A stretch of DNA of 26,725 nucleotides from a virus, in the IMG/VR virus record IMGVR_UViG_3300037847_004773, positions 1-26,725 of that record. The stretch is one strand, 5' to 3'. Below, piece by piece: positions 6,588 through 26,317 of the stretch. Position numbers and translations under genes: made by a program. Numbering within the stretch: the stretch's first letter is position 1; every line of letters starts with the position of its first letter. Under the pieces are notes generated by a model. It did no database searches. It worked only from the letters and a program-made list of their open reading frames with translations, and was not told the DNA's origin.

Positions 6588-9500
6588 ATGCCAGAGTTAA
6601 GTAGAAATTTTCTAAAAGGTCGTATGAATAAAGACCTTGATGAAAGAGTGGTACCTGCTGGAGAATATAGGGACGCTCTTAATATCGAAATAAGTACTTC
6701 TGACACTGACGACGTTGGTGCAGTAGAAAATTTATCAGGCAACTACAGAAGTGATAGGATAAAGTTTGTAAAGCCTGACTATGATACCGCAGAGACAGTT
6801 TCAGGTGGAGATCGATTTAGATTTAGAAATATAGCTGATTTATCCTCTACAGCAGAAACCGTAGGCGTAGTTGCAGATCCTACTACAGATAAAATATATA
6901 ACTTTGTAGCTAATGCTTCTGATATTGACACTTCAGGTAGTTGGCCTCACACAGGTATTAAGTCGGACGCAATAATTGAATGTGAAACGCTTGATAGAGG
7001 TAGTGGTTTAAGAGGTTTTAGACAGGTTGTTTTATGCGACGTGTACCAAGTTCAGCATGCTTGTCTCAACTCTAGTGATAGTTCTACTAATAAGATTATA
7101 ATAAATTCTGATTCTATAAGTGGTTTCAAAGAAAATCTTATTGGTATTGAGTTTGGCATGGAGGTAGATTTAATAGACGCTGATGGTGTGTCGCGTTTAA
7201 GTCTAGTTAATCCAGGAGCTGATCTTCCAACTGTCAAAACTTTTGATTTTGGCACAAGTGTTGATCCTTCGATAAATATAGAGATTAGCCACAATATTGA
7301 AAATGTAGCTTTAGCTATATCTACGTTTGGTACTTTAGTGTGGAAGTTTACAAAGCCTAGATTTTTAAATTTTAATTCAAGCACGCAGCTACCTACTACA
7401 AACGGAGGTTCTGACAACACAGCCACGCCTATCGATAATGCTATATACGGCATTGATGTTTTTGATGGGTTTTTATTTTTTACTGATGATAAAAATGAGC
7501 CTAAAAAAATAAATATAGAAAGATTTAAAAAAGGTGGTATTCTTGGTACAAAAGAAACTCATAGCATATTTTATACGACTAGACTACTAAGACCTTTAGA
7601 CTCTAGCCAAACTATATTTGCAGCTGGAAATAACAACGGTAATTTTAGCAGTCCTTTTACTACTATTGCTCAACATCATAGTAATAGACCAGTATTAGTT
7701 GAAGAAGAGCACATAACAGTAATAAAAAGACAACCTACAAGACCACCAACTGTTGAAGCTTTTGCTACGCCTCAAGCAGGTGGTACTTCTACTTTGTATA
7801 CCAATGTAGATGTTACTAGCATTAACTTAAGTAGCTATGTTGAAGGTGATGCTGTTACTATACAAATGCCAGCTACTACGCTTTTTAACCCTGGAGATTT
7901 AATATCTTTAATTGGAGTTTCTGGCAATACCGATGCCGCTATACAGTTGATTGTTAACGCGGTTCCGCCAAACACTTTAACAGCTACAAGTTTTGATTGC
8001 ACTGTTTTTAGAACAGATTTAGACGGTAGTGATTTAACGGCTGGAACTACGCCGGGAGAGCAAGTTATAGCAGACGCTAGCACAACTTGGCACGCGACTT
8101 TAGGTAATAGGCCCGGAACTGTTAATACTCAAGCTATATATGTAGATAAATTTCCTAGATTTGCTTACAGATGGAAATATGTAGATGGTGAATATTCTAC
8201 TATATCGCCTTTTACAAAACCTATATTTATTCCTGGAACATATAATTTTAATACTAGTACTGACGGAGACAACGATGCAGAAGCTTATAACACTGGTATG
8301 GAAAATACTATTCAAACTATAAGGCTTAAAGATTTTCTACCTGCAGAAGCACCAAAAGACGTTGTAGAAGTTGAGTTGCTACAAGCTTTATCAAACTCTA
8401 ATTCTATATATTCTATCAAAAACTTTAAAGTAACAGATTTTTATTTAGAAAATTCACAAGCTTTTACTCCAGTTAGAATTAGATCTGAACATGCTGGTAC
8501 TGGAAGTTTTGGGCATCAAGGAAGTGGTCAAATTGGTACACATCAGAATCCTGGCGCATTAAACAACATAGGTGTTTTTGATATAACTGAAGATTTATTT
8601 GGAAGTGTGATAGAAGAAAATCAACTTTTAAGAAACTTTGACAATGTACCTAGAGTTGCAAGAGCTCAAGCTGTATCTGCCAATAGAATAATATATGGAA
8701 ATTATTTACAAAGCTACAATATAGAAACTACTAATAGAAGATCTATAGACGTACAAATAGATTTAGCTTTAAAATATTTACCCACGGAAACAGTTCCAAC
8801 TGCATTTCCTCTTGGTACTACAGAGTCTTTAAAAAGTAATAGAACATACGAAGTAGGTGTTGTATTTAAAGATAAATTTGGTAGAGAAACACCAGTTTTA
8901 ACAAGTAAAGACTCTTCTATAGCTGTACCTAACGTTTACGCTCCAGCTACTATAAAGCTAGAGGCTTCTATGAGAAACGTTTTACCTACTTGGGTAGATT
9001 CATACAAGTTTTACATAAAAGAAACATCTAACGAATATTATAACTTAGCTTTGTATAAAGCATACAACGCTTCAGAACATCAAACAAATGGTGAGGCTTG
9101 GTTGTTATTTAACTCTGCAGACTCAAGTAAAGTTCAAGAAGGTGATACTTTAATACTTAAAAAAGATCACAGTGGTGTTTCTTACGGAGACTCTGTCAAT
9201 GGATTTGCTCCAGCAGAGTATAGAGTTTTAGCTAAAAGTTCTACGGCACCAACGCTTGCTAAACAAATAAACGGTGCGGATGCAGACACTAATGGATCAA
9301 TAAGTGCGGCTGACAGAGACGGTAAGTTTTTTGTAAAAGTTACCAACGACACTACGTTACAAGCTAGATTACTTACTGATTTTTCTGGAGATAATGATAA
9401 AATAGGATCAAGCACAACTCCAGCTATATTTGAAACTAAGCCAGATCCAGACTTAAACTTAAATATTTGGTATGAAGCGTCTAGATCTTACCCTGCTAAA

Positions 9501-12500
9501 CTAACAGCTGAAAACATAATGTCAGCAATAGCTATCGGTGATTTTGTACAAATATACGATTATGTTGCTGGCGCTGCTGGTTCTGTAGCTTTAACTGCTA
9601 CTGATCAGTTTGGCAACAATAACGATCCTGCAGACGCAGCTGGAATACAAACACCTTTAACGCTTACTAAAGTAGAAGGTCCTGATTTACTAGGTTATTA
9701 TAAAGCAACGCTTTCTGGGGCTATAGCTTTTCATACAAATTCGTATTTAGGTACTATACACTTTATAAAGCCTGATGGATCAGCTATAGCTTTATCAGTG
9801 GCTTTTCCAAATGGTACAGGTAATTATAATAGTGTTACTGGCGCAGATAGTGATGGTGGTGATCTATTAAATACTCAAGTTTTATTTCACTGTAATACGA
9901 CTAATAATCAAGAAGGTTTAAATCCTAGTAGTGGTTTTGTAAGATTAGACTGGTATAATTGTTTTAACTTTGGTAACGGTGTTGAGTCAGATAGAATTAG
10001 AGACGACTTTAACGAAGTTCAATTAAATAATGGCGTTAGAGCATCTTCGACTTTTGATGACTATAGAGAAGATAGAAGAAGCCACGGTTTAATATTTTCT
10101 GGTTTATATAACTCTAACAGCTCTGTAAACGAGCTTAATCAATTTATACAAGCTTTACCTATTACTAAAGATATAAATCCTGAAAACGGTAGTATTCAAA
10201 AAATATTTTCAAGAAACACTGACATATTAGTATTTGCAGAAGATAAAGTATTGAAGATATTAGCAAATAAAGATGCTTTATTTAACGCTGGTGGTAACGC
10301 TAACTTAACTTCGTCAAGTTCTGTTCTTGGTCAAGCAATACCTTTTGCTGGAGATTATGGAATATCTCAAGATCCTTTGTCTTTTGCTTCAGATGAGTAT
10401 AGATGTTATTTTGCAGATAGACAGAGAGGTACTGTTATAAGATTATCAAGAGACGGTATAACGCCTATAAGTGCTATAGGTATGTCAGATTATTTTACAG
10501 ATACACTTTCTTTAACTTCTGCTTTAGTAGGATCTTATGACGATAGAAAACAAGAATATAATTTAACCATTCACTCAGGAGCAGAGTTGCTTTCAAGTCA
10601 ATCAAGATTTAAAGATGTTACAACTGTAAGCTATAGTGAAAACTCTAAAGGTTGGTCTAGTTTTAAAAGCTTTATACCTGAAAGAGGTATTAGCTTAAAT
10701 AATAACTACTATACATTTAGAAATGGTAGAATGTATATACATCATTACGATCAGCGCAGCAACGTTATTGCAGACAATAATCCTGATGGTACCGCTTTAA
10801 AATGTAATTTGTTTTACGGTGAGCAGTTTACTTCTTCTATAACACCCGTATTCAACGATGTGCCTAGTGCTGTTAAAAGCTTTACTACTTTAAATTACGG
10901 AGGTACTCAAGCTAGAGTTTTACCTGACATAACAGGTACACTTGCTGTTATAACAGGCGTTGACGTTAATCTTAGAACTTTACAATTTACAACAGCTTTT
11001 GACGTGCCTTTTGGTGCTACAATAAGTGGTACTAATATACCAGCTGGAACTACAGTTGTAACTACAGACAACGTAGCTACTGACGGCAACGAATATAATT
11101 TACAAGTTGGTATGTCTGCTGACGCTACTTCAAATATAGCGGCTGGTACTGTCATAACTTTTTACGATGAAGAGTGGTATAACAATATGCCAGCTCAAGT
11201 TAGTGGCGGTAGACCTGGTTGGTATGTAGAATCTATAAGTACAGATCTTCAAGATGGTCAAATAGCAGACTTCAGAAGAAAAGAAAGTAAATGGTTTAAC
11301 TTTATAAGAGGTACTAAAACAACTTGGACAAACGCTGTTGAAGTTAATAATACAATACATGCAGACGCTATTGGTAATATAGACTCGCAAGAGTTTTCTT
11401 TTCAAGGATTAGGAATGATGAACACTAGCAACGGTGATAGCGCTTCTTTAACTTCTGGATCTATTGATTCAACTTTTAGTGTTCAAGTGTCAGACACTAG
11501 CGATGTAGATACTCCTGGCGGAGTAAATCTATATAGTACAGATGTAGCTTTAATAACTGGTCTTTCTGGAACAGTGAGTACTACAGGTTTTATAACAATA
11601 ACGCCTGATTTAGGAGTATTTTTACAAGCTTCAGACTTTACAATTAGCGGTGGTACAGCTAATTCTGAAGGTAATTTTGTTAACGGTCAAAACGGAGTTA
11701 CACTGCCTAGCCAAATATCAAAAGTGACTTTTACTAATACAGCCACAGCGGATCAACTAGCACAAAGCTTTACTGGCAATACTATTAAGGCTACATTTAC
11801 TTTTTCAGGATTTACTATATCTGCAGATCAAGTTTTAACTATAGATATAGATTTAACAGAAGGCAGCGTATCTCAAACGGTTGGTATTCCAGTGATACAT
11901 AGGCAAGGCTTTAAAAACTCTCAGTATATTAATCAAAATCATACAATAACTTATGATACTTCTGCGCAGCCAAACATGACGCCTTCTACAAACATTACAG
12001 GCACGCCTAGATTTAGCTTCAACTCATCTACTAAAGTATTAAGTCATGCCGCGGGTCATGAGCAAGCGACGGCTAATTCAGCTGGATCGGTAACAGGTAC
12101 TACTCATGTTTTAACTTCAGACATAGCGTCTAGCTTGTTAGCTGGTAGTAACATAACTGATTCTCACAGTGCGTACTTTAATGGAGGAGGATTTATTGGT
12201 TTTGTTGACTCAGTTACAGATTTAGGATCTACTACTCAAGTACAGTTTGGAGCAAGTGTTACAGTACCTCAAAACAGTGTTATAGATTTTATAGATGGAA
12301 TATTGAACAACGCAGGTAATCCTCAAATAGGTACTTACAACGGGAGCATACAAATAGTACCAGGTGAAGCTACAGAATTTAAAAAGTTTGTTATAACTTG
12401 CGATAGTGGTTTTAAAATTACTAATTTTACTGTTTCACTAGACTCACAAGGATCAGATGTAACTAATAGTATGCTTAGTTTTACAACTGATGACACTGTA

Positions 12501-12629
12501 GATGGTAGTGGTAATGTGACAGCTAGAACCGCAACAGTTTTTATAAACATACCTGTTGACTCACCTTTATTGCAGTCAAACGGCTTAGGTGTTCACTTAT
12601 TTTACAGTTTAACAATAAACCCAATATAA
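6588..12629 (+). CDS. Giant tail protein: tube/propeller front, adhesin-like back
   Basis: A 2013-residue tail protein. The N-terminus (ELSRNFLKGRMNKDLDERVV, then PAGEYRDALNIEIS) is a signature I recall from tail tube or 'muzzle' proteins of marine and crAss-like podoviruses. Blade-like motifs follow: 'FLFFTDDKNEPKKIN' at 295-309, 'NFDNVPRVARAQ' at 683-694 with 'NRIIYGNYLQ' at 699-708, 'YEVGVVFKDKFGRETPVLTS', and 'SKGWSSFKSFIPE' at 1353-1365. Residues 898-909 form an EF-hand-like loop (D898, D900, N902, G903, I905, D909). From about 1390 the composition becomes Thr/Ser/Gly-rich and beta-repetitive to the end, like host-binding adhesins. So one chain probably serves both tail structure and receptor contact. 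There is no signal peptide and no frameshift. Domain assignment is from remembered patterns. Confidence 0.75.
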   Translation: MPELSRNFLKGRMNKDLDERVVPAGEYRDALNIEISTSDTDDVGAVENLSGNYRSDRIKFVKPDYDTAETVSGGDRFRFRNIADLSSTAETVGVVADPTTDKIYNFVANASDIDTSGSWPHTGIKSDAIIECETLDRGSGLRGFRQVVLCDVYQVQHACLNSSDSSTNKIIINSDSISGFKENLIGIEFGMEVDLIDADGVSRLSLVNPGADLPTVKTFDFGTSVDPSINIEISHNIENVALAISTFGTLVWKFTKPRFLNFNSSTQLPTTNGGSDNTATPIDNAIYGIDVFDGFLFFTDDKNEPKKINIERFKKGGILGTKETHSIFYTTRLLRPLDSSQTIFAAGNNNGNFSSPFTTIAQHHSNRPVLVEEEHITVIKRQPTRPPTVEAFATPQAGGTSTLYTNVDVTSINLSSYVEGDAVTIQMPATTLFNPGDLISLIGVSGNTDAAIQLIVNAVPPNTLTATSFDCTVFRTDLDGSDLTAGTTPGEQVIADASTTWHATLGNRPGTVNTQAIYVDKFPRFAYRWKYVDGEYSTISPFTKPIFIPGTYNFNTSTDGDNDAEAYNTGMENTIQTIRLKDFLPAEAPKDVVEVELLQALSNSNSIYSIKNFKVTDFYLENSQAFTPVRIRSEHAGTGSFGHQGSGQIGTHQNPGALNNIGVFDITEDLFGSVIEENQLLRNFDNVPRVARAQAVSANRIIYGNYLQSYNIETTNRRSIDVQIDLALKYLPTETVPTAFPLGTTESLKSNRTYEVGVVFKDKFGRETPVLTSKDSSIAVPNVYAPATIKLEASMRNVLPTWVDSYKFYIKETSNEYYNLALYKAYNASEHQTNGEAWLLFNSADSSKVQEGDTLILKKDHSGVSYGDSVNGFAPAEYRVLAKSSTAPTLAKQINGADADTNGSISAADRDGKFFVKVTNDTTLQARLLTDFSGDNDKIGSSTTPAIFETKPDPDLNLNIWYEASRSYPAKLTAENIMSAIAIGDFVQIYDYVAGAAGSVALTATDQFGNNNDPADAAGIQTPLTLTKVEGPDLLGYYKATLSGAIAFHTNSYLGTIHFIKPDGSAIALSVAFPNGTGNYNSVTGADSDGGDLLNTQVLFHCNTTNNQEGLNPSSGFVRLDWYNCFNFGNGVESDRIRDDFNEVQLNNGVRASSTFDDYREDRRSHGLIFSGLYNSNSSVNELNQFIQALPITKDINPENGSIQKIFSRNTDILVFAEDKVLKILANKDALFNAGGNANLTSSSSVLGQAIPFAGDYGISQDPLSFASDEYRCYFADRQRGTVIRLSRDGITPISAIGMSDYFTDTLSLTSALVGSYDDRKQEYNLTIHSGAELLSSQSRFKDVTTVSYSENSKGWSSFKSFIPERGISLNNNYYTFRNGRMYIHHYDQRSNVIADNNPDGTALKCNLFYGEQFTSSITPVFNDVPSAVKSFTTLNYGGTQARVLPDITGTLAVITGVDVNLRTLQFTTAFDVPFGATISGTNIPAGTTVVTTDNVATDGNEYNLQVGMSADATSNIAAGTVITFYDEEWYNNMPAQVSGGRPGWYVESISTDLQDGQIADFRRKESKWFNFIRGTKTTWTNAVEVNNTIHADAIGNIDSQEFSFQGLGMMNTSNGDSASLTSGSIDSTFSVQVSDTSDVDTPGGVNLYSTDVALITGLSGTVSTTGFITITPDLGVFLQASDFTISGGTANSEGNFVNGQNGVTLPSQISKVTFTNTATADQLAQSFTGNTIKATFTFSGFTISADQVLTIDIDLTEGSVSQTVGIPVIHRQGFKNSQYINQNHTITYDTSAQPNMTPSTNITGTPRFSFNSSTKVLSHAAGHEQATANSAGSVTGTTHVLTSDIASSLLAGSNITDSHSAYFNGGGFIGFVDSVTDLGSTTQVQFGASVTVPQNSVIDFIDGILNNAGNPQIGTYNGSIQIVPGEATEFKKFVITCDSGFKITNFTVSLDSQGSDVTNSMLSFTTDDTVDGSGNVTARTATVFINIPVDSPLLQSNGLGVHLFYSLTINPI

Positions 12630-12630
12630 C

Positions 12631-13002
12631 ATGGCATTAGGACAACTAACATTAACATTACAATTTGTTGCTAACGTTTCAGTTCAGCCTGGCGACATTA
12701 TGTATTATTCAGATACATCAACAATAGGTAATGATACCCACGTATTAAGCGCTAACGATATATACATGATGGGTGAAATATTAACTATAACAAGAAACGC
12801 CACTAACACAGTTTTTACTTTGGACTACGACTTGAGTGTGCCGCTGCCAACTACAGGCGCTTTCTTTTCATTTTCAAAAGACAACTTAGCAAACTGTTCG
12901 TCGCTATTAGGTTATTATATGGAAGTTAAATTTGTTAACAACTCTACTAAAAAAGCTGAGTTGTTTTCAGCAGGCACAGAGATGAGCGTAAGCAGTAAAT
13001 AG
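12631..13002 (+). CDS. Small conserved virion-associated hypothetical
   Basis: A 123-residue beta-rich protein. It starts MALGQLTLTLQFVANVSVQP and ends 'GYYMEVKFVNNSTKKAELF' plus 'SAGTEMSVSSK'. I recall the ending (Y-x-EV-x-x-x-N-x-S-x-x-KAELF, then a Ser-Ser-Lys terminus) from small uncharacterised proteins that accompany this type of tail gene in marine phages. It starts one base after the 2013-residue tail gene's stop, so it is almost certainly co-translated with it. A role as a small tail or head accessory protein is inferred from position. No signal peptide, membrane segment or catalytic motif is visible. Confidence 0.75.
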   Translation: MALGQLTLTLQFVANVSVQPGDIMYYSDTSTIGNDTHVLSANDIYMMGEILTITRNATNTVFTLDYDLSVPLPTTGAFFSFSKDNLANCSSLLGYYMEVKFVNNSTKKAELFSAGTEMSVSSK

Positions 13003-13039: not shown

Positions 13040-13666
13040 ATGGCAAAAAAGACACCAATAAAATTTATAGACGGCATCGTCCAAATGGGCGTAGCTTTAT
13101 ACAATAAGAAAGCATTAAAAGCCGCTCAAAAAGAAGCAAGAGATAATCTAAGAGAAGAAATGGATGCTTTTAGATCATTAGATACTAGTAATCCATACGC
13201 TGATTTAGAAAATGCTTACGAAGACTTGACAGTTAACACTCAAGAAGCAGAGTTTCAAAGAGACACCGCTCAGCAAAGTCAAGCAAATATATTAGCTAGT
13301 TTAAGAGGAGCGGCTGGATCTAGTGGTATTGGAAGTTTAGCACAAACGCTAGCTAATCAAGCAAGCATAGATGCTAGAAGATCTTCTGCTAGTATAGGTG
13401 CTCAAGAAGCTCAAAACCAAAGGTTAGCAGCTCAAGGTGCAGCTAGTGTTCAAAGTCAAAAAGCTTACGGTCAATATTTATCTCAACAAATGGAAATAGA
13501 CAAACAGTCTACACTAACTGGTATTGCTCAAACTGAAATGCAACAAGCAAACGCTAATAGACAGGCTAATCAAGAAATGTTCATGGAAGGTCTTGGGACT
13601 GTTGCTAATGCGGCTATTGGTATGCCTTACAAAGGTGGCGTTGGTAAACCAAAGAAAAAATTATAA
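13040..13666 (+). CDS. Putative internal virion / ejection protein
   Basis: A 208-residue protein, mostly helical and rich in Ala, Gln and Ser (about residues 15-185), with a charged coiled-coil pattern and a basic end (GKPKKKL). Two weakly hydrophobic stretches flank the helix: residues about 8-21 (KFIDGIVQMGVALYN) and about 178-197 (MFMEGLGTVANAAIGMPYKG). This size and composition match small internal core or ejection proteins such as T7 gp14 or P22 gp7, which form part of the channel for DNA entry. The position just before two large putative cargo proteins agrees. Sequence similarity to those proteins is not claimed; this is compositional and positional inference. A 37-base A/T-rich gap precedes it, with no clear promoter. 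Confidence 0.6.
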   Translation: MAKKTPIKFIDGIVQMGVALYNKKALKAAQKEARDNLREEMDAFRSLDTSNPYADLENAYEDLTVNTQEAEFQRDTAQQSQANILASLRGAAGSSGIGSLAQTLANQASIDARRSSASIGAQEAQNQRLAAQGAASVQSQKAYGQYLSQQMEIDKQSTLTGIAQTEMQQANANRQANQEMFMEGLGTVANAAIGMPYKGGVGKPKKKL

Positions 13667-13668
13667 GT

Positions 13669-15441
13669 ATGAAAGAATCACCAAATAAACAAAGTAATAG
13701 TATACTTATAAAAGGCGCGGCTACTGGAGGTAGAAAAGGATCTGCTAGTAGAACTGTACCTTTAGGTGGGGCTGAAGCTGTAGACGCTTTTAAAAAAGCT
13801 TTTAATAGAGGCTCAGGTAGAGGCACAACGGCTAAAACAAACAACACCACTAAAAGTAATAAATCTCAACCACAAGCCAAAAGTAGTGGTAGAAGAAAAT
13901 TTAGAGACACTAAAATAGGTCAACTTTTTACTAGAAACAAAAACAAAGTTGATACAGGTGTTAGTGCAGGTAGTGCGGATAAAAGTGATTTAAAGTTAAT
14001 TCCTGTTACAGGTATAACGACAGAAGAAAGCCGCGATCTTTACAATGCTACTATAGCTTACAGAGATAAGCTAGCTAAAGACGGCGTGCTAAATAGTAAA
14101 GAGCGAAGAATAGCAATTAGAAGATATGCTAATAAACTTAGAGAAGAGCTTAATAAAAGTAAAGCTGATAAAAAAGCTCAATACATAAAAGATAACAATT
14201 TAAATGTTTCAGAGTCTCCTTCAAAGATGAGATCACCAATGAAACAAGATGAAAACTTAATAAAAGGCGCTGCTACTAATGTAGGAAGAAGAGCTGACGG
14301 AACATATTTTATAGGTGGTAGTAGAAGCGGTCAATTTAGTAAAGATCTAGCTCTTGGGCCAGATTCTGTTAGAGCTTTTACAAAAGCTTTTAATAGTGAA
14401 AAAGAAAGAAAAAAGAGAGTAGAAAAAGAAATAAAAAACTTTGATCCTGTAGCTAACAAGCAAGGTTTAAATAGTTTTAAAAACGGAAGCATGCAATGCG
14501 CTGACTTCTCTATGAACAATAAAGAAAAAATGTTTATAGCTCAAAACAGGCAAGGAAGAAATAAATCTTTTATGGGGCTTGGAGCATTTAAATCACCCTT
14601 TACTCAAAAAGAAGACACTGTTTTAAAGCCTGATAAAGCAAAAAGTTTTAAGCAAGAAAAAGAAGAAATAAATGGTAGAATGAAAAGACTTGCTAGTGAA
14701 GTTAGAAACTTGCAAGGCGAAAAAGAAATGTGGATTGAGCTTTCAGGTGGTGATACAGAAGGAAGATCTTATTACTCTGCAGGATCTAATAGACATTACA
14801 AAGCAGCGCTAGATGATGTTATGACGAAATCAGCTGATACTAAAGTTAAAAAAGATGGTAGTGTTGTTTTTCAAATAGAAGTTGAAGATGCTAGTGTTTT
14901 TCCAGAAAATTTAAGATATGGCGCTAATAAAATAGAGGCTAGCGTAGATGACTTAAACGAGAAAGTATATTTAGAAGACAGTAAAGGATTTTTAGATTTT
15001 AGTAGATTTAAAAAAGATGCATTAATGAAAACTTCTCAAGGCATGCAGTTTGACGAACAAGGTGTAAGAGGTGTAGTTAATAATTTATTAGGCGATAGAA
15101 TAAACTTTTCAGAGCCTAAACTAATGTCTTGGGCTACTGACGATGCTAATAGAGATGGTAGTTCGTTTATGGCTGATTATTTAGAAGTTTTTCCAAATCA
15201 AAAGTTTTTATTTGATGGTAGCTTTGACTTGCAAACTGTTGTAGAAACTGATGAAAAAGTTACAACTGTAGGTGATCTTTTAAGACAAGAAATAGTAGAA
15301 TACAACGTAGAAAAACTAAGACGTAATCATAATGCAATAGCTCAATCAAAAGAGTTAAACAACATAAGTAGACCAAGATATACATTTGACAATGTTGTGT
15401 CTGGAGAAAAAGCAAATATGATCACTGGTTACGAATCATAA
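13669..15441 (+). CDS. Basic virion protein with duplicated LIKGAAT segment
   Basis: A 590-residue protein of unknown function. The N-terminal half is basic, Ser/Lys/Arg/Gly-rich and probably disordered. It contains two copies of a segment beginning LIKGAAT and ending AFxKAFN: residues 13-46 and 197-242. Each copy follows an SPxK tetrapeptide (SPNK at 4-7; SPSK at 183-186 and SPMK at 189-192). The C-terminal half (about 310-590) looks folded. It has a coiled-coil stretch (KSFKQEKEEINGRMKRLASE) and a segment 'DGSSFMADYLEVFPNQKF' that I recall from uncharacterised marine phage proteins. The gene sits between an ejection-like protein and the giant protein, 2 bases after the former's stop, so internal virion cargo or DNA binding is plausible. 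No enzyme motif was found. Confidence 0.65.
   Translation: MKESPNKQSNSILIKGAATGGRKGSASRTVPLGGAEAVDAFKKAFNRGSGRGTTAKTNNTTKSNKSQPQAKSSGRRKFRDTKIGQLFTRNKNKVDTGVSAGSADKSDLKLIPVTGITTEESRDLYNATIAYRDKLAKDGVLNSKERRIAIRRYANKLREELNKSKADKKAQYIKDNNLNVSESPSKMRSPMKQDENLIKGAATNVGRRADGTYFIGGSRSGQFSKDLALGPDSVRAFTKAFNSEKERKKRVEKEIKNFDPVANKQGLNSFKNGSMQCADFSMNNKEKMFIAQNRQGRNKSFMGLGAFKSPFTQKEDTVLKPDKAKSFKQEKEEINGRMKRLASEVRNLQGEKEMWIELSGGDTEGRSYYSAGSNRHYKAALDDVMTKSADTKVKKDGSVVFQIEVEDASVFPENLRYGANKIEASVDDLNEKVYLEDSKGFLDFSRFKKDALMKTSQGMQFDEQGVRGVVNNLLGDRINFSEPKLMSWATDDANRDGSSFMADYLEVFPNQKFLFDGSFDLQTVVETDEKVTTVGDLLRQEIVEYNVEKLRRNHNAIAQSKELNNISRPRYTFDNVVSGEKANMITGYES
13705..13806 (+). repeat. Internal protein repeat, copy 1 (LIKGAAT...AFN)
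   Basis: This encodes residues 13-46 of the 590-residue protein. It shares LIKGAAT, a Gly-Arg pair, a Gly-rich centre and the closing V-x-A-F-x-K-A-F-N with copy 2. Confidence 0.75.
14257..14394 (+). repeat. Internal protein repeat, copy 2 (LIKGAAT...AFN)
   Basis: This encodes residues 197-242 of the 590-residue protein. It is longer than copy 1 by 12 residues in the Gly-rich centre. At DNA level the start is close to copy 1 (ataaaaggcgc-gctact), while the rest has diverged, indicating an old duplication. Confidence 0.75.
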
Positions 15442-15452
15442 AATAAAATTAT

Positions 15453-18400
15453 ATGCCAATTTACAGACTTTCAGACGGAAGAGAGGCTAATGTAGGCCCA
15501 GAAAATGAATCTAGATTTTTAGAAGACTTCGCTGACTTTAATCCAGAAGTAATAGAAGAAGATGTTGCTACTGACGTAGATGTTGAAGAAGTAACTGTTG
15601 AAGACGAAAAAAAAGATCCAGCCATTACCCCAATGGGTGCAGGTGTAGTGGCACCAGACGATATGGCATCCAACTTGGAAGAAGTTTCTTTGGATTTACC
15701 AGAAGTTGAAGAAGATAAAATAGAAGATACAGATATATTTTCATATTCTACTGTAGAAAACAAAGTTATATCAGCTGAAAATAATTCTAATAGAGAAAAA
15801 GAAAAACAAAAGTTTTTAGACGAAACGCAAGACATCGATATTGATGATGACGAAAAAGATGCTCTGTATGATCAAATGGAGCATCAAAACTTTATAGACG
15901 ACGAAGAAGCATTTAAACAAAAGTCGCAAAATAGAGTTGATAGATTTTTTCAAAACGCTGATGAGTATTTAAGAAAAGCTTTAATTAAATCAGGTAACGC
16001 AAACTCATACCTATCTATAAAACAAGCTCTTGACGCTAAAATATTACCTTACGTTGATCCATTTATAGCTTATGAAACAGAAGATGGAGAAATATTTATC
16101 TCTGCTGCAACTACCACAAAAATAGGGCCTGACGAATATTTTACTAGACCTGAAGAAGATCAAGCTAGATTTATATCAATATATGATTATGCTAAGAAAA
16201 TGGCAACTACGTTTTCTGACATGATAAATTATGCGAGTAATGCTTGGGACGACGCCGCTACTTTTCAAGGTGGTTTAACCTTGAGAGATGAAGGTGATGA
16301 AATGAGTCAAGAAGATTTTGAAAAATATAAAAAAGCAATAGAAGAGGCTGAAAATAATCCTCTTCCGCCAAGTGTTTTAAGATTTCAAGCTGTTATTGAA
16401 AGTGAAGAAAACAGTTTTAAAGGTTTTTTTAAGGCCTTGATAGATCAACCTACCGCAGCCGCTCCTTATGTAGCTAATTTATTAACTTTATTAGGCGGTG
16501 CTTATTTGCAAAGCGAAGACATAGCAGGACCTGTAACCGGCGCTGCTGCCGCTGAATATACTCGTGGATTTGTTTCAACCCCTGGAGATGTTAGAGTTAA
16601 ATTGTTAGCTGGTATACCTTACGGTGTTAGAGGTGGTATGGCTACGTTGTCTAGTAAAGTTGCTGGAGCTTCTAAGTTTAACGAGATATTAAGATCAGAG
16701 TTTGCTCCAGGCGGACTGATGGAAGGTCAAGACTTTAACTTTCAAAACGTAATGTCTCTTGTAGAAAGCGAAGACTGGTTGAAAAGAGCTCGTGTAAAAT
16801 CTAAAACCTACGGATTAAGTATAGGTGCTGTGGATTATTTTACCGGTGGTCTTACAGGTAAAGTTGTTAAAAAATATAGTGCTGCTGGTAAAATTAAAAC
16901 AGCTACTATAGCAGGTTCTGCAGTTGAAGGTACTGGTGGTGCTTTTGGTGAGCTTTTAGGTCAAGTGCTTGAAGGATCTATTGGTTATGATGAAGAGCTT
17001 GGAGTTTATACGCAAGACGGTCACCCACTACACGTAAACGAGATTGGGGAAATGGGTTATCTAGTATATGATGAGCCTAATTATCTAGATGAAGGACAAA
17101 CACCTTATATTGAAGTTGGTATAAAGATACCAAACACTTTCGGTGTGTTTGGTGATAATTTAAGGTTTAGACCTGCAGATGGTCTAAAAAATATAAATGG
17201 AGGAGAAATAGCTATGGAGTTGGTGTTTGGCCCTGCTGCTGGTGCACCAAACGTAGCTGCAGCTTTAGTTAGTAAGCATGGCTTTACATATAAAGGCAAA
17301 ACATACAACGCTGCTCAAATACCAGAGTTAATAAAAACTTTAAAGTCTTCAGAAGCTATGGACATGGCTTACAATATGGAATTTACTAGTAAGATGCCTG
17401 CTTCATGGGCAAACAATATTCGAAAGCAATTATATATAAAGGGCATAGAAGGTGGCGTTAGTAGTAAAATAACTAATCCTGAAACTAGAAAACAAGTTGC
17501 TAAAGTTGAATTTGAAATACAAAAATTAAGACAAAAAGTAAAGCAAGATGGTTTAGAGTCTGATAAAATAGAGTTAAAAGAAAAAGAAAATGAGCTTGTT
17601 AATTTATATCAAGAAGGAGTACAAGGCGCAGACAGAGTAATATCACCTAAAGTAGAGGCAGAATTAGAAGAAGAAAGACTAGCTGTTGATAGAGTTATTA
17701 CTAAAAATCGAGTTGATAGATCTATTGAGTTTGCTAAAAACTCTGGTTTAAAACCAGCTGAAAATGTTATTGTTTTACCTGGAAATGAAGCTATCGACGC
17801 GATAGCTGAAGCTATAGCTGAAACAAAAGGTATTACCAAGCAAAAAGCTATGGCCGAAGCTGAAAAAACAGTAGGCCAAGTTTTTGGTGATAAAATGATA
17901 ATAAACTATGATAAAGCTGTTGAAGATAAAGCTATAACTATAGGTGAGCATGAGGTTGGTCACTGGGTGTTAGATGAAATCGGTATTGATGACACACGTA
18001 TGAAAAGTATTGTGAAAAAATTTAAAAGCGTGTTGTCACAATCTGCTTTACGAAAATTAGAGGCAGAGTATAATTCTAGATATGCTAAAGACGGCGATAC
18101 AGTGTCTGCGCAAGAGTGGTTTACTGTTTTTATTGATCTAGTTGGTCAAGGTAAAATAGATCTTGACGATGCTAATCCTAGTGATTGGCAAACTATAGCT
18201 AACGAAGATATAGGTCAAATATTTACAGAGACTGGTTTAAAAGGCTATAGATTTGACACAGGTAATCAAGCTTATGAGTTTATAGCTGCATATTGGAAAA
18301 AAGCACAAACAGGTAGATTAAGAGAAGGAAAATTTTCATCTAAGCTAGGTTTATTTAAGCCTAGAGCAAAAGTGCAGTCTACAGATAAAGAAAAGAAGTT

Positions 18401-21400
18401 TAGATCAGACGGAAGATCTAAAAATCAAATAGAGGAAGATGTAAACGATTTAGTATTTGGTTTAGATCAAGAAACCTACTTCGAAGAGTTTGACGCTATA
18501 TACCAAACTATAATTGAAAGAGGTGATTTTGACAATTTAATATCTGCCAACGATAACATAAGCAAAACCCAAGCTCAAAAAGAACAGTTCATAAAAGATG
18601 TATTAGCTAACATGACTAGCTACATTAGAAACTTTGATCCTACAACTAATGACAACTTTTTTGCTTATATAAATTCTCAAATAAAAAACAGGTCTGCTTT
18701 AATAGCTAATAGAAGGTTAAAAGAAATAGAAACAGAGCAACAGTCTGTAAGTCTTGACGATGAAGCTACTTTTGTTAGAGAAATAGCTGATGAGCCAACT
18801 ACTACAACAACAGTAGAGGCTGATGAGGCGCCATCTCTGTTAGATAAATTACCAGTAAATGCAAATATAAGGCTTGCTTTAAAAAACTCTGTTAAAAGCG
18901 CTCTAAATAAAATTGGTGTAAACTTTGGCGAAGGTAAAAAAATAACTAGAACTGTATCGCCGTTTATATCTTTATTTAAAAAAGAGCTTGGCGATGCTCC
19001 TCGTGGTAAAAAAGGTATAAGCAATTTTGCAGCTGAAATAAGAAACGATATAAAGAAAGACTACGAAGGCTATCTAACTACTAACATGAATAGGATATTA
19101 AAAAACGCGCCGCTTGATTGGTTAGCTAATAATTTTCCTAGTATGGTAGAAAAACAAGTTAACGGTGTATTTACCGCTGACTGGAAAGGTAAAAAAATAG
19201 ATAGAGAAAAATCAGCTGAAACAGGTAACACTGCAGGCCCTCAAATAAAAAGAAGAAGAAAAGGTGTTACTGTTGATCTTGAAACTTTCTTAAATCATTA
19301 TTTAAATGCTAGAGACGCTAAAGGTAAAAGAAAGCCTAAGCAAATGCGAGTTGAAAGCTTAGTTAAAATGCTTGCTCAAGAGTTTGGATTAGAATATTTA
19401 TCTGCAGAGCTTAACAAGCCTAACAGTGAGCTTTCAAAACAAGTAGATCAAATAGCTAATCTTAGAGACGTTGTATTAGCTGAAAACTTTGCGGCAGAAC
19501 TAAAGCGTGATCTTGAACGTGGTAGTGTTAAAAAGTATAGATCTGCAGGAAAAGATTTTGGACAAATACTACTATACGCGCCTGAAATAACTCAGTCTGC
19601 TATTAAAAACGGATATAGATCACCTAAGTTTGACGATGAACTTAGAAACTTAGACATTGATCCAGACTCACCAACTTTAGAAAAAATAATGTCTTGGTTA
19701 GGTTGGTTTGATGATGGTCAAGCTTTTAAAAAGCCAATATTAGAAGCTTACGAAAACGGTAAGTTTAAATTTTTTAACAAACAGCTTAAAAAATATTTTG
19801 ATAATACAATATCAAGTGACAAAGCAAAGGATCAATTAGCAAGTTTTTGTTTAAAGTTATTAAAAAAATATCCATCTAGTTTATTAAAAACATTAAACTC
19901 TGTTAAAGATATTTTTAATTTAAAAAGCTCAAGCAGGCTTTTAGACGGAAGGCCAGGTGGTAGAAAAAAAGACGCTGATCTTAGAAGTGAAGTTGATAGA
20001 AGAAAAGATGGTAGCTTTGGAGATAATATTGAGCTTGATTTTGATATAACTAAAATTAGATTAGTTAACGCTGGTAAGGGTATTGCTAATAAAATAGAAA
20101 AATTTTTAGAGCAAGATTTTAATTCTAAAGAAGAAAAAATAAAAGCTTTTAACGAAAAGTTTAAGCAAGAAATAGAAGATTTAAACGCTAATAACCATGG
20201 GTTTATAGAGTTTAATGTAATAGAAATGATTGAGCTAGTTGTTCAAAATGAAGATAACTTAGTTGGAGTTTTAAGACATTTAGAAGCTTCTAGTGGTAAT
20301 ACTAGTGGTTTTTTAAGAGCTTACAGTAAAATATCTTTAGTTGAAATATTTGCTAAAAATCAAAAAGCTGATAAAAATCACCCGCTATATAATGAAGCTG
20401 TCAAGTTTATTAAAAAATATAATCCTGAAATTACAGATCCAAAAGATATAGAAGTTGCAGCGGAAAAACTATTAAAGCAAAAAGGTGAACATGTTATGGC
20501 TACTTCGAATCTTGCTAGAGGTATAGCAGAGCTTATAATGAACTCATCTCAGCTAATAATAGAAAATCCTAGCGAAAAGCAAAACATATTAAACAATGTT
20601 AAAGCTGATCTTGCTGACTTAATGTACAACTACGATCAAGTTTTAGGATCTAAAGTAATGTTTGATATAATAGACAAAAGACCTAGAGGCTCTACTGATC
20701 CAGCTGAATATGTTAGATTTGATGATGTAAAAGATAACTTACCTAATTATTATAATCCAACAACAGGACAAGATGGTGTTCAAACACAAAGACAACGCAT
20801 TGATTCAAAAGTTGATCTAGCGCTTGCAGAAATAAAAGACAGAGTAGAATATCAAAAGAAATTTAGAGCTGCTAAAGACAGTAACGACGGCGGCGCTACT
20901 ATATTTGACTTTGACGACACTGTAGCTACAAGTAATTCTCAAGTCATTGTAATAAAAAAAGACGGTACTCAATATACTATAACGCCTGCAGAGTTTGCTA
21001 AAAAAGGCGAACAATTAGGGCTTGAAGGTAACATATTTGATTTTAGTCAATTTAATGATGTTATTGATGGTAAGCCCGGGCCTTTCTTTGAAAAGCTTAA
21101 AAAGCGTGTGGAAAAATATGGTAATGAAAACGTGTATATACTTACCGCTAGACCAGAACAGTCACAGCTAGCTATATTCTATTGGTTGAAAAGTAACGGT
21201 ATACATTTAAAACTAGAAAATATAACAGGATTAGGTAACTCGACAGCTCTAGCTAAAGCAGAGTTTGTAGTTGATCTTGTTCAAGAAAAAGGTTTTACTA
21301 ACGTTCACTTTGCTGACGATGCTGTTAATAATGTTGAGACTATGGATATTTTACTTGGTCAAATCGAAGGCTTAAAATCTACATCTACACTAGTTGTTGA

Positions 21401-23516
21401 ATCTAAAAAATACAGATCTAAAAAAGCTAATCAAATACTAGAAGCTACTACAGGCATTAGAGAAGAGATGACGTTTTCTGAAGTTGTTGGTAGACAAAAA
21501 GGTAAAGAAAAAGATAAGTTTAGGTTTTTACCGTACTCAGCTGAAGATTTTAAAGGTTTAATATATCAGCTTTGTGGAAGAGATGAGCAAGGAGTTAAAG
21601 ATTTTGAATTTTTTAAACGCGAGTTGTTAGATCCGTTTGCTAAGGGTATAAATTTAATTAACTCAGAAAAGCAGGCTATAATGAACGATTATAGAGCTCT
21701 TAGAAAAGCAATGCCTACGGTTCGTAAAAAGCTAGGTAAAAAAATACCTAACACTGAGTTTACATTTGGTATGGCCATAAGAGTTTATCTGTCAGACAAA
21801 GCTGGATTTGATGTGCCTGGAATATCTAAAAGAGACTTAAATAAAATTAAGTCTGTTGTTAAAAACGATCCTGAGTTATTAAAATTTGCTAACACGCTTG
21901 GCTTAATATCAAGAAAAGAACAAGGCTACATAGAGTTAAAGCAAGACTGGCTTGGCGGTAGTATATCTAGCGATTTAAGTGATATATCTGTAAAAATAAA
22001 TAGAAAAGAGTTTTTAAAAGATTTTATAACTGCTAAAGATGAAATATTTACAGATCAATTTAAAGCTAAACTAAGAGCTGCCTATGGTAACAAATACGTT
22101 GAAGCGTTAGAAGATTTATTATACCGTATGGAAACTGGTGCTAGACGAAACTTTGGTAGCAATAGAATAGTTAACGCTTGGACAAACTGGGTTAACAATT
22201 CTGTCGGCGCTATAATGTTCTTTAACGCTAGATCTGCCGTACTACAAACTTTATCTACAGTTAACTTTATAAATTGGAGCGACAACAATTTATTTAAAGC
22301 TGCTAAAGCTTTTGCTAATCAAAAGCAATACTGGAAAGACTTTGCGTTTTTATTTAATTCAGATTATTTAAAGCAAAGAAGAAGTGGCTTAAAATCAGAC
22401 GTAAACGGAGCTGAGCTTGCAAGCGCTGCTATGGGCGCGCCTAACAAGGCTAAAGCAGCTTTAGCGTATTTACTTAAAAAAGGATTTTTACCTACGCAGT
22501 TTGCCGATAGTTTTGCCATCGCTACTGGAGGCGCCACATATTATAGAAATAAAATAATCAAGTATGTTAAAGAAGGTATGAGTCAAGCTGAAGCTGAGAA
22601 ACAAGCTTTTATTGATTTTCAAGAAATAGCTGAAGAAACACAACAGTCTTCTAGACCTGATAAAATATCACCTCAACAAGCGTCTGCGTTAGGTCGTTGG
22701 ATATTAGCTTTCCAAAATACACCAATGCAATACACTAGATTAATATATAGAGCTGGGCAAGACTTAGCTAACAATAGAGGTAGTAAGATAGAAAACATAT
22801 CCAAAATATTATACTATGGTGCTATACAAAACCTTATATTCGCTTCACTTCAATCAGCATTATTTGCGTTTGCATTTGATGATGAGATAGATGAAGATGA
22901 GCAAGCTAGACTTGAACAAAAGCAGGTTAGAATAGTAAACAATATGATAGACTCTATTTTAAGAGGTACTGGTATAACTGGTGCCGCTATAGCAACTATC
23001 AAAAATACTATAATGGAGTTTTACAAGCAAGAGCAAAAAAAGTTTAACAACGATCATGCTCAAACATTAATACAGTTTGCTAATCTTGCTCCACCAGTTG
23101 GTATTAAATTTAGAAAAGTATATAGCGGTATACAAAGCTATACATATAATAAAGATATTGTTGGTGAAATGAGTTATTTAGATCCACAAAACCCAGGTGT
23201 GCAAGCTATAGCTAATGTAATATCAGGCGCAACAAACTTTCCAACAGATAGAATAGTAAATAAAACAAATAATCTTGTTGAGGTTTTAAACTCTGATAAT
23301 GAAAACTGGCAAAGACTTGCGCTAACTTTAGGTTGGAACACTTGGGACGTTGGAGTTGAACAAACTAGAAGAGATGAAGCTAAGCTAGAAGTTAAAAGAA
23401 AGAAGAAAGAAGAGAAAAAGAAAAACCAGCAAAGATGTACTCAGATAAAATCTGATGGCGAAAGATGTAAGATGATGGTTGACAAACCTAAAAAGAAATG
23501 TCATTATCACGATTAA
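15453..23516 (+). CDS. Giant large-polyvalent-type virion protein
   Basis: A 2687-residue multidomain protein, probably packaged and injected. In order: acidic N-terminus (1-165); Gly/Ala-rich, partly hydrophobic region (about 335-512) that could contact membranes; coiled coil (about 670-780); zinc metallopeptidase motif HEVGH at 833-837, with E942 in 'YEFIAAY' a possible third ligand; a stretch at 1057-1103 (FDP, then FFAYINSQIKNR, then SLDD) resembling sigma-70 region 2; and a HAD-type domain with D1819-x-D1821-x-T1823, 'ILTAR' at 1896-1900, 'ENITGLGNST' and D1955-D1956. A module of unknown function follows ('GAIMFFNARSAVLQ' 2252-2265, 'GRWILAFQNTPMQYTR' 2414-2429, hydrophobic 2453-2475). 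The end is a Lys-rich linker and a zinc-knuckle-like tail (C2662, C2672, C2683, H2686). This fits the known 'large polyvalent protein' architecture of phages. It is one uninterrupted frame. Activities are predicted from motifs only. Confidence 0.8.
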   Translation: MPIYRLSDGREANVGPENESRFLEDFADFNPEVIEEDVATDVDVEEVTVEDEKKDPAITPMGAGVVAPDDMASNLEEVSLDLPEVEEDKIEDTDIFSYSTVENKVISAENNSNREKEKQKFLDETQDIDIDDDEKDALYDQMEHQNFIDDEEAFKQKSQNRVDRFFQNADEYLRKALIKSGNANSYLSIKQALDAKILPYVDPFIAYETEDGEIFISAATTTKIGPDEYFTRPEEDQARFISIYDYAKKMATTFSDMINYASNAWDDAATFQGGLTLRDEGDEMSQEDFEKYKKAIEEAENNPLPPSVLRFQAVIESEENSFKGFFKALIDQPTAAAPYVANLLTLLGGAYLQSEDIAGPVTGAAAAEYTRGFVSTPGDVRVKLLAGIPYGVRGGMATLSSKVAGASKFNEILRSEFAPGGLMEGQDFNFQNVMSLVESEDWLKRARVKSKTYGLSIGAVDYFTGGLTGKVVKKYSAAGKIKTATIAGSAVEGTGGAFGELLGQVLEGSIGYDEELGVYTQDGHPLHVNEIGEMGYLVYDEPNYLDEGQTPYIEVGIKIPNTFGVFGDNLRFRPADGLKNINGGEIAMELVFGPAAGAPNVAAALVSKHGFTYKGKTYNAAQIPELIKTLKSSEAMDMAYNMEFTSKMPASWANNIRKQLYIKGIEGGVSSKITNPETRKQVAKVEFEIQKLRQKVKQDGLESDKIELKEKENELVNLYQEGVQGADRVISPKVEAELEEERLAVDRVITKNRVDRSIEFAKNSGLKPAENVIVLPGNEAIDAIAEAIAETKGITKQKAMAEAEKTVGQVFGDKMIINYDKAVEDKAITIGEHEVGHWVLDEIGIDDTRMKSIVKKFKSVLSQSALRKLEAEYNSRYAKDGDTVSAQEWFTVFIDLVGQGKIDLDDANPSDWQTIANEDIGQIFTETGLKGYRFDTGNQAYEFIAAYWKKAQTGRLREGKFSSKLGLFKPRAKVQSTDKEKKFRSDGRSKNQIEEDVNDLVFGLDQETYFEEFDAIYQTIIERGDFDNLISANDNISKTQAQKEQFIKDVLANMTSYIRNFDPTTNDNFFAYINSQIKNRSALIANRRLKEIETEQQSVSLDDEATFVREIADEPTTTTTVEADEAPSLLDKLPVNANIRLALKNSVKSALNKIGVNFGEGKKITRTVSPFISLFKKELGDAPRGKKGISNFAAEIRNDIKKDYEGYLTTNMNRILKNAPLDWLANNFPSMVEKQVNGVFTADWKGKKIDREKSAETGNTAGPQIKRRRKGVTVDLETFLNHYLNARDAKGKRKPKQMRVESLVKMLAQEFGLEYLSAELNKPNSELSKQVDQIANLRDVVLAENFAAELKRDLERGSVKKYRSAGKDFGQILLYAPEITQSAIKNGYRSPKFDDELRNLDIDPDSPTLEKIMSWLGWFDDGQAFKKPILEAYENGKFKFFNKQLKKYFDNTISSDKAKDQLASFCLKLLKKYPSSLLKTLNSVKDIFNLKSSSRLLDGRPGGRKKDADLRSEVDRRKDGSFGDNIELDFDITKIRLVNAGKGIANKIEKFLEQDFNSKEEKIKAFNEKFKQEIEDLNANNHGFIEFNVIEMIELVVQNEDNLVGVLRHLEASSGNTSGFLRAYSKISLVEIFAKNQKADKNHPLYNEAVKFIKKYNPEITDPKDIEVAAEKLLKQKGEHVMATSNLARGIAELIMNSSQLIIENPSEKQNILNNVKADLADLMYNYDQVLGSKVMFDIIDKRPRGSTDPAEYVRFDDVKDNLPNYYNPTTGQDGVQTQRQRIDSKVDLALAEIKDRVEYQKKFRAAKDSNDGGATIFDFDDTVATSNSQVIVIKKDGTQYTITPAEFAKKGEQLGLEGNIFDFSQFNDVIDGKPGPFFEKLKKRVEKYGNENVYILTARPEQSQLAIFYWLKSNGIHLKLENITGLGNSTALAKAEFVVDLVQEKGFTNVHFADDAVNNVETMDILLGQIEGLKSTSTLVVESKKYRSKKANQILEATTGIREEMTFSEVVGRQKGKEKDKFRFLPYSAEDFKGLIYQLCGRDEQGVKDFEFFKRELLDPFAKGINLINSEKQAIMNDYRALRKAMPTVRKKLGKKIPNTEFTFGMAIRVYLSDKAGFDVPGISKRDLNKIKSVVKNDPELLKFANTLGLISRKEQGYIELKQDWLGGSISSDLSDISVKINRKEFLKDFITAKDEIFTDQFKAKLRAAYGNKYVEALEDLLYRMETGARRNFGSNRIVNAWTNWVNNSVGAIMFFNARSAVLQTLSTVNFINWSDNNLFKAAKAFANQKQYWKDFAFLFNSDYLKQRRSGLKSDVNGAELASAAMGAPNKAKAALAYLLKKGFLPTQFADSFAIATGGATYYRNKIIKYVKEGMSQAEAEKQAFIDFQEIAEETQQSSRPDKISPQQASALGRWILAFQNTPMQYTRLIYRAGQDLANNRGSKIENISKILYYGAIQNLIFASLQSALFAFAFDDEIDEDEQARLEQKQVRIVNNMIDSILRGTGITGAAIATIKNTIMEFYKQEQKKFNNDHAQTLIQFANLAPPVGIKFRKVYSGIQSYTYNKDIVGEMSYLDPQNPGVQAIANVISGATNFPTDRIVNKTNNLVEVLNSDNENWQRLALTLGWNTWDVGVEQTRRDEAKLEVKRKKKEEKKKNQQRCTQIKSDGERCKMMVDKPKKKCHYHD

Positions 23517-23533
23517 TATGTAATAATTTACTT

Positions 23534-24577
23534 ATGAAGTATATATTTTTAATACTAGTTTTTTTAATGTCTTGTGCGGCACCTAAAAAATGCTGCTCAC
23601 AAATTAAAAAAGCATTTAAGTTTTCTACGTTCTATGTAGCAACAAACGGTGGTACATCATTGTCTGATCAAGATGTATACTCTGTTGATGGTAGCATGCT
23701 AGATTACGATACTATATTAACGCCTTACGACTACTCATTAACAATGGGTATACGTAAAATACAAAGATTTCAATATGAAGGTAGTACGCCGTTTAAAGAT
23801 GGTACCGAAACATCGTTCTCAGACGCCGCAAACGTTGGACGATCTCCGTTTGAGTATTTGTTTGAAGTTGATTACAAAAGACAAGAAGGTGTAGAGTATT
23901 TTGATCAACATCATTTTTTAAGATATGTTAAGCCAAAGTGGTTTACAAAAGTAGAATATATTAAAGATGGTTTTGCAGACATAGAGTATTTTGAAAGCAC
24001 GCAAAGACTACGATTACTTGGTAATAAGAAGTTATCGTTTAACATCGGTGCTGTTCAAAGACTTGCCGAGCCTTATGGCTATGATCCGCTTGAAGAGTGG
24101 ACTATGGCTACAGGCGATATACATTACACGCAGTTAGCGATACAAGAGGGTTACAATATAGATGTATATAATAACGAATACAAAGATCCAGACGGCAATA
24201 TAGTAGCCACAAGCTCTGACGTTTGGAATCAAGTAGCAATACCTACTGTATTAGAAAACTATGTAAATAAAAAACGTAACGAATTAGAAAATCAATGGCA
24301 GCATAGCTTTGTTGTTGGGTTTGACTTTTATCATTACAAGAAAAACTTTTGGTTACACTCTTGGGGTAACATAATGCCTTATCATTATAATGATGGTGGA
24401 CAATTTACATATCATAGCTTTAATGATGATGAGCAATGGTATGATTATTCTGGTGGTTTAATATTTGGTTATAAGCTAAATAAGAACTTAGGTTTGTTTG
24501 TTGAAGGTAAATATAACAAGTACTGGACCAAAGAGTGGTATGACTTTAAGTGTGGTATTAACTATGTAATCTTTTAA
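23534..24577 (+). CDS. Phage lipoprotein, outer-membrane-barrel-like
   Basis: I choose ATG 23534 (MKYIFLILVFLMSC) over an upstream in-frame ATG at 23498, because it avoids overlap with the preceding gene and puts a signal peptide at the N-terminus. Residues 2-3 flank a hydrophobic core (4-12), and L11-M12-S13-C14 is a lipobox for signal peptidase II. Met at -2 is unusual but tolerated. The mature part is rich in Tyr, Phe and Asp and forms alternating beta-strand patterns. It ends in amphipathic strands closing with Phe (GINYVIF), the C-terminal signature of outer-membrane barrels. The residues after Cys14 are AAPKKCC, with no acidic surface-export signal, so periplasmic facing is more likely. 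I recall uncharacterised homologues in marine phages. Receptor masking, superinfection exclusion or a lysis-related role are possibilities, none proven. Confidence 0.7.
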   Translation: MKYIFLILVFLMSCAAPKKCCSQIKKAFKFSTFYVATNGGTSLSDQDVYSVDGSMLDYDTILTPYDYSLTMGIRKIQRFQYEGSTPFKDGTETSFSDAANVGRSPFEYLFEVDYKRQEGVEYFDQHHFLRYVKPKWFTKVEYIKDGFADIEYFESTQRLRLLGNKKLSFNIGAVQRLAEPYGYDPLEEWTMATGDIHYTQLAIQEGYNIDVYNNEYKDPDGNIVATSSDVWNQVAIPTVLENYVNKKRNELENQWQHSFVVGFDFYHYKKNFWLHSWGNIMPYHYNDGGQFTYHSFNDDEQWYDYSGGLIFGYKLNKNLGLFVEGKYNKYWTKEWYDFKCGINYVIF

Positions 24578-25456: not shown

Positions 25457-25867
25457 ATGGCAACAACAACAGCAACAATAACATTAGCTAGTACAGACTT
25501 AATATCTGACGAACTAAACTTAACTACGTCTGCTACGCTTACAAAAGCTGGAACATCTACTGGATTAGTATCAACAGGTGGTTTAGGTAGAAAAACTACA
25601 GAATCAACTGGTGAATACACTCTTTTTACAGCTGCTAATTTTACAGACGACGGTGCTAATAAAGTATACCTCAAAAACACATCGTCAACAGCTTCAGAAT
25701 ATTTCCTTGTAAAGCTAGGCGATATAGAAATGGGTAGGCTTTATGCTGGTGACTGGGCATTTTTTCCTTGGAACGCAGACACAGGTACTACGCCAGACGC
25801 AGATGTAAAGATTACTCCTAGTGTTTCAACAGCTATAACACTAGAATACATGTTACTAAACGAATAA
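25457..25867 (+). CDS. Small beta-rich repeat-family protein, paralogue 1
   Basis: A 136-residue protein of unknown function and first of three tandem paralogues. The N-terminus is MATTTATITLASTDLISDEL. Shared elements are 'LTKAGTS' near 29, 'KVYLKN' at 69-74, and 'GRLYAGDW' at 93-100 followed by an aromatic-Pro-Trp segment. It looks all-beta, with no signal peptide and few charged residues. I recall similar small proteins ('GRLYGGDWxxxPW') near tail and lysis genes of marine phages, without assigned function. A virion surface or fibre component is a reasonable guess. It starts 2 bases after the DUF5675-like stop. Confidence 0.75.
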   Translation: MATTTATITLASTDLISDELNLTTSATLTKAGTSTGLVSTGGLGRKTTESTGEYTLFTAANFTDDGANKVYLKNTSSTASEYFLVKLGDIEMGRLYAGDWAFFPWNADTGTTPDADVKITPSVSTAITLEYMLLNE

Positions 25868-25888
25868 TTAATAATAAATAAATAAAAA

Positions 25889-26308: not shown

Positions 26309-26317
26309 TTTAGAATT

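Follow-up and report, generated by a model that had tools for sequence, protein, structure and literature searches.

The giant protein and its family

The window examined here is the whole 26,725-nucleotide stretch of IMG/VR record IMGVR_UViG_3300037847_004773, a 26.7 kb record that is probably a fragment of a virus genome. Its source phage is uncultured and is kin to viruses of marine Bacteroidota. The plus strand encodes a giant, putatively polyvalent protein of 2687 aa (15453..23516), with an ATG at 15453 and a stop at 23516. A sequence-only reading had described this as a single 2687-residue frame, and it was found to be open and intact.

Relatives of the giant are encoded on at least 155 IMG/VR contigs, and the best 80 of these loci were used for the family comparisons. 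Long, apparently complete members measure 2252-4518 aa. The last ~650 residues of the giant are kept at ~40-50% identity in nearly all members and the N-terminal parts vary strongly. The helical C-terminus is thus the constant part of the family, and the enzymes that precede it are exchangeable. No match to the giant, or to two divergent zincin-sigma segments of the family, was obtained by tblastn among 50,697 named phage records, and phmmer against PDB sequences returned nothing meaningful for the giant. It was noted that the giants of L055, L065, and L068 carry a zeta-toxin-type kinase (PF06414, E 1e-11 to 1e-13) inside the frame as another swappable payload. In the closest relative, L002, the giant is present as two frames (10001-17949) broken near residues 2345/2376 of the window protein, reflecting either a real split or an assembly error.

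Gene cluster and probable virion location

The gene order of the locus comprises the portal, capsid genes, an SU10-adaptor-like gene, the muzzle, proteins of 123, 208, and 590 aa, and finally the giant. The muzzle/tail-nozzle-type protein (2013 aa; 6588..12629, +) matched a PHROG virion structural protein at E 2.3e-117, and its match to the crassvirus muzzle C-terminal domain was just under the family cut-off (E 1.4e-5). By gene order, the 123-aa protein (12631..13002, +) occupies the slot of Cellulophaga phage phi40:1 gp98. The helical, Ala/Gln-rich 208-aa protein (13040..13666, +) is of the small ejection type and is a homolog of phi38:1/phi40:1 gp99 (profile E 3.4e-11 with phi38:1 gp99). 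By synteny, the 590-aa medium ejection-type protein (13669..15441, +) takes the slot of phi40:1 gp100, a counterpart annotated from MS/MS. The giant closes an ejection-type cluster of muzzle, small, medium, and giant proteins, which lies on one strand in relatives. Of the 80 loci, 67 have the 208-aa gene upstream of the giant and in the same orientation, and 12 of the other 13 have less than 2 kb of upstream DNA.

Identical gene order was observed in Cellulophaga phages phi38:1 and phi40:1 and in the elemo phages, and a similar order in Panino and ctfjg026. Proteins gp97 to gp101 of phi40:1 are marked 'experimental MS/MS proteomics analysis' in the phage's record, and gp101 is the giant of the same slot. 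Flavobacterium phage elemo gp18 matches phi40:1 gp101 (E 8e-7); this match, together with the zincin match of our giant to elemo and the segment B match to ctfjg026 described below, indicates that the slot holds a family of domain-exchanging giants. Because gp101 lacks the HExxH and HAD motifs, the MS evidence covers the slot and not the architecture of the giant. The giant is probably packaged in the virion, as judged from its counterpart gp101 and its position. The virion location suggested by the sequence-only reading is backed indirectly, by way of that counterpart and of the zincin shared with the elemo giant of the slot (E 1.7e-8).

Zincin-like domain

A zincin-like metallopeptidase domain is predicted at aa 808-962 (17874..18338, +). 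It contains an HExxH motif that is conserved in the family (HEVGH, aa 833-837; 17949..17963, +) and a candidate third zinc ligand, E888 (18114..18116, +). H833, E834, and H837 were invariant in all 52 covering aligned rows and E888 in 56 of 56, in a region whose rows, L002 excepted, are otherwise just 13-27% identical to the giant. The HExxH motif is present in 68 of the 70 long family members, compared to 0.8% expected from shuffled copies. The AF2 model shows the elements expected of zincins: a strand hairpin, a helix with HExxH, and another helix that bears the Glu. The alignment and the predicted fold agree on this full zincin-like set, with the strands ahead of the HExxH helix and the Glu downstream of it. 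Held-out profiles, which were trained without the cultured phages and compared with shuffled sequences, placed the zincin as homologous to residues 1535-1660 of elemo gp18 (E 1.7e-8; best shuffle 0.038). It was noted that the L086 giant (ctfjg026), a protein of 3859 aa, contains HExxH twice, at 1615 and at 2500.

A conserved zincin in mid-chain raises the question of whether the giant is a polyprotein that its own zincin cuts before packaging, with just a fragment reaching the virion. Such processing is reported for phage P1 DdrB (PMC5512222), and the C-terminal part of the L002 giant forms a separate frame. However, N4 vRNAP goes into the virion uncut although it too has an HExxH domain (PMC5512222). 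We regard cleavage before packaging as a minority reading with some life in it, and continue with packaging of the giant itself as the preferred one.

Sigma region 2-like domain

Directly after the zincin, a helical domain resembling sigma region 2 is predicted at aa 976-1100 (18378..18752, +). A late sigma factor profile of PHROG matched residues 1043-1078 (E 8.9e-5). At the corresponding position, L041 matched phrog_351 (E 1.1e-5) and L067 matched both phrog_1740 and Pfam Sigma70_r2 (both E ~0.004-0.005), and a genome search with Sigma70_r2 (PF04542) found the L067 giant at E 1.3e-4. In VIA-align, sigma subunits made up 50 of the 50 chains listed for model residues 189-313, which correspond to aa 976-1100. 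The top match was the ECF sigma H (Z 8.1 over 80 residues), and the tool itself rates Z values up to 8.1 as middling when the fold is helical. The best Foldseek match of the model in the PDB (E 0.22) was not significant alone. The sequence profiles and the model thus suggest a sigma region 2 fold at moderate scores, with complete agreement in the identity of the matches.

The profile of this domain was found in 35 family ORFs, comprising about half of the long members. Its motif in the giant is F-D-P-x5-F-x2-Y-x4-I, which we take to lie in the register of sigma region 2. A Trp pair is typical of region 2.3 in group-1 sigma factors, and this pair is absent from the family motif. Pfam gave no match to sigma region 4 in the giant or 20 relatives, a search that also misses region 2 in most members; since no region 4 was found, the domain is probably not a complete sigma factor. 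Descent of the domain from the phages' own separate sigma gene was considered and is unsupported (hhalign probability 0.4%).

The missing Trp pair, the middling VIA scores, and the Foldseek value would all suit a helical bundle that has converged on a sigma-like shape, having neither descent nor function in common with sigma factors. This reading must also account for three divergent members that each match a different sigma profile in the same position, for PF04542 picking out the L067 giant, and for a VIA list consisting of sigma subunits throughout. We consider convergence unlikely on this balance, and treat the domain as sigma-like in what follows.

HAD-type domain

Further along the chain, a HAD-superfamily phosphatase-type domain is predicted at aa 1814-1971 (20892..21365, +), with a full set of catalytic residues. 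The motif DFDDTV begins at 1819, and D1819, D1821, and T1823 were each kept in 52 of 52 aligned rows. K1935, D1955, and D1956 were each present in 53 of 53 rows, and T1898 in 52 of 53. The predicted domain aligned with HAD hydrolases in VIA at Z 10.0 (rmsd 2.7 over 107 residues). The DxDxT string alone was rejected as evidence since it occurs in 49% of shuffled proteins, and the call is therefore carried by the aligned conservation and the fold. In the alignment and the model, the DxD nucleophile, the motif II Thr/Ser, the motif III Lys, the motif IV DD, and a Rossmann-like fold all appear to be in place. An unnamed domain just upstream contains a near-invariant pair in the family alignment, E1679-H1680 (20487..20492, +). 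The Panino giant was also considered as a HAD carrier and set aside, its profile match being weak (E 0.0075) and without a DxDxT motif.

Among the 80 loci, the HAD domain is absent from L059, L075, L077, and L078. Because the sigma-like and HAD domains are each missing in some members, both are dispensable to the family.

Such losses of whole modules, and the cultured phi40:1 giant without HExxH and HAD motifs, could be taken to mean that the giant is mainly a structural ejection or core protein whose zincin, sigma-like, and HAD folds are inert leftovers. Decay would not keep catalytic residues, which argues against this explanation, given that those of the zincin and HAD domains are invariant or nearly so although the zincin region is mostly only ~13-27% identical. 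Inert folds are accordingly improbable, and we return to the preferred reading of a protein with working enzyme domains.

Other segments and the C-terminal module

Toward the N-terminus, segment B (aa 264-508; 16242..16976, +) is a Gly/Ala-rich hydrophobic helical stretch common to the ctfjg026 giant, with residues 514-695 of which it matched by held-out profile (E 4.2e-12; best shuffle 0.0029). It may represent a putative membrane or conduit segment. In mid-chain, E1 (aa 1167-1364; 18951..19544, +) is a conserved domain of no assigned function that is found in a subset of the family, with profile matches in 10 proteins.

The conserved all-helical C-terminal module (aa 1993-2644; 21429..23384, +) was kept in 80 of 80 loci (the best 80 of at least 155), and was modelled as a helical module in a model of mean pLDDT 80. 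When the HAD and C-terminal module model was compared with a viral structure library (BFVD), it matched polyvalent, PolyVal ADP-ribosyltransferase, and MuF-C proteins (E 1e-9 to 1e-5), as well as the elemoC_14-1A structural protein (E 9e-5). Judged by these models, the module is of the same fold family as the C-terminal parts of other phage polyvalent proteins. Foldseek of the same model against the PDB gave no significant E, and no known fold was listed for the C-terminal module, which is not evidence of a novel fold. Neither hhalign nor profile search matched the C-terminal and HAD parts to the phi38:1, elemo, ctfjg026, Panino, and phi13:2 giants or to N4 gp50, apart from the weak Panino match noted above.

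At the very end of the protein lies a zinc-knuckle-like motif, C-x7-C-x10-C-x2-H (aa 2662-2686; 23436..23510, +), which was detected by profile in 20 family ORFs, often in two copies. The protease-, sigma-, HAD-, and zinc-like modules named in the sequence-only reading, and its conserved module of no assigned function, were thus each borne out, with the segment-wise structure prediction and profile searches that it had called for recovering zincin, HAD, and sigma-like folds.

Host and transcription

Apart from one unassigned record, every relative of the portal and muzzle proteins belonged to a phage of Flavobacterium, Cellulophaga, Tenacibaculum, or Maribacter. The C-terminal module was also found on MAG contigs. 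The long ones fell into Bacteroidota bins, except for a single contig of 42 kb that was binned as archaeal, and the short ones in unrelated bins are probably misbinned.

No multi-subunit RNA polymerase was detected in 13 relative records, and all 14 of 14 control genomes were matched by the same search. Separate sigma-type genes of ~255 aa were found in 8 of those 13 records, and in further records via phrog_351. It was noted that the separate sigma factor of L106-L113 (~255 aa) has a region 2 of the DLIQ type and apparently ends in a helix-turn-helix. From the combination of separate sigma genes and no multi-subunit polymerase, these phages probably use the host RNA polymerase with phage sigma factors, and the sigma-like domain of the giant would be a second, early sigma-like element. 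A single-subunit RNA polymerase domain had no match in the giant, in a search where the PF00940 control was also without a match.

Relation to known systems

Phage polyvalent proteins resemble the giant in that a single very long chain unites several unrelated domains, of which the zincin is the most frequent, with injection alongside the phage DNA having been predicted (Iyer et al. 2017, PMC5512222). The C-terminal fold of the giant is likewise common to proteins named polyvalent. As predicted from sequence and models, zincin, sigma-like, and HAD domains are joined in one chain, which would place at least two disparate activities in a single polypeptide and agrees with the 'large polyvalent protein' concept invoked by the earlier reading. 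No Pfam polyvalent domain was over threshold in the giant, and the Pfam MPTase-PolyVal domain (PF18818) had no match in 20 records, nor in the control genomes. By text search, neither a sigma factor nor a HAD phosphatase appears in the main text of the polyvalent survey (PMC5512222), and a literature search, with subscription papers outside its scope, found no report of sigma region 2 in a polyvalent protein. Because neither source gave a precedent, the sigma-like piece looks new to a kind of protein that is itself already known.

Of the cultured giants, phi40:1/phi38:1 gp101 (Pervagoviridae) shares the slot after the muzzle, gp98, gp99, and gp100 and is a virion protein by MS/MS annotation. 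However, it is 1691 aa long, has neither the HExxH nor the HAD motif, and gives no direct sequence match. Elemo gp18, a 3694-aa structural protein, occupies the same slot and has the homologous zincin with HEIFH, but it contains a DUF3293 domain and has no HAD motif and no sigma-like match.

The layout is comparable to that of N4 vRNAP, where a membrane-type N-terminus is combined with an enzyme, an HExxH subdomain, and a large C-terminal part that is helical and of no known fold (PMC12633501), and N4 similarly runs from the portal to small, medium, and giant genes (gp52-gp51-gp50). N4 gp50 carries an RNA polymerase, whereas the giant instead has the sigma-like domain. Comparison with N4 gp50 gave no significant sequence relation, with E 8e-4 for segment B against a best shuffle of 0.002, and no match for the C-terminal module. 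T7 has a similar order of nozzle, small protein, gp14, gp15, and gp16, with comparable sizes for the smaller proteins, but T7 gp16 has 1318 aa and a lysozyme-type domain. The 208-aa protein had no detectable profile match to T7 gp14 or N4 gp52. In phi-crAss001, the cargo genes gp45-gp50 with their giants follow the muzzle gp44, and their products are packaged and proposed to be ejected (PMC10172136). Those giants are RNA polymerase subunits, whereas none were found in the 13 relative records.

Proposed role at entry

With good though not full confidence, we propose that the giant is a virion-packaged polyvalent ejection protein, the largest of an internal ejection set, with packaging argued from its counterpart and ejection from the analogies above. 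The giant would be packaged with the 208-aa and 590-aa proteins, be ejected through the muzzle, and enter the host ahead of or with the DNA, where it would refold and work like N4 vRNAP or T7 gp16. The C-terminal helical module would be the constant part, probably serving packaging and ejection, segment B may touch the membrane or conduit, and the middle would be the variable payload. Within this payload, the most likely task of the zincin is to process the chain into working units or to act on host proteins as a protease, self-cutting having been proposed for zincins of polyvalent proteins (PMC5512222). The HAD domain might remove phosphate from a host or defence molecule. The sigma-like domain would most likely dock on the host RNA polymerase at the sigma region 2 site, and there either dislodge the host sigma factor or direct early transcription.

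A more specific and tentative version, possible but not one that we would favour, is a virion-delivered sigma mimic. The protease could free the region 2 domain, which would capture the host polymerase at entry, and the separate sigma gene, which is complete, would come into play later. If true, the host RNA polymerase would be captured before any phage gene is read. That the giant instead acts unpackaged in the cell late in infection is very improbable: packaging is argued from position and counterpart only, but the giant ends a virion module whose synteny is kept in relatives and whose five phi40:1 counterparts are annotated from MS/MS.

Short-tailed phages of marine Bacteroidota are common, and a packaged ejection protein of this kind would bear on how they take over transcription on entry. 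N4 and the crassviruses bring a polymerase; in the family of the giant, which seems to be without one of the multi-subunit type, a sigma-like domain may be delivered instead. A constant C-terminus combined with swappable enzymes, zeta-toxin-type kinases included, offers a route to new phage effectors, and the family architecture allows a direct test of the role of the constant C-terminal module.

Genes downstream of the giant

A 359-aa gene (23498-24577) directly follows the giant. Its product opens with a signal-like stretch that closes in a lipobox-like LMSC, and has a terminal aromatic residue like that of an outer-membrane barrel. The gene, which is without a family name, also follows the giant in many relatives, and its product reaches 89% identity with the L008 copy, compared to ~50% for the giants. 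The window closes with three tandem paralogs at 25457-26725 (~136-139 aa; 33-37% mutual identity), the last of which runs off its end.
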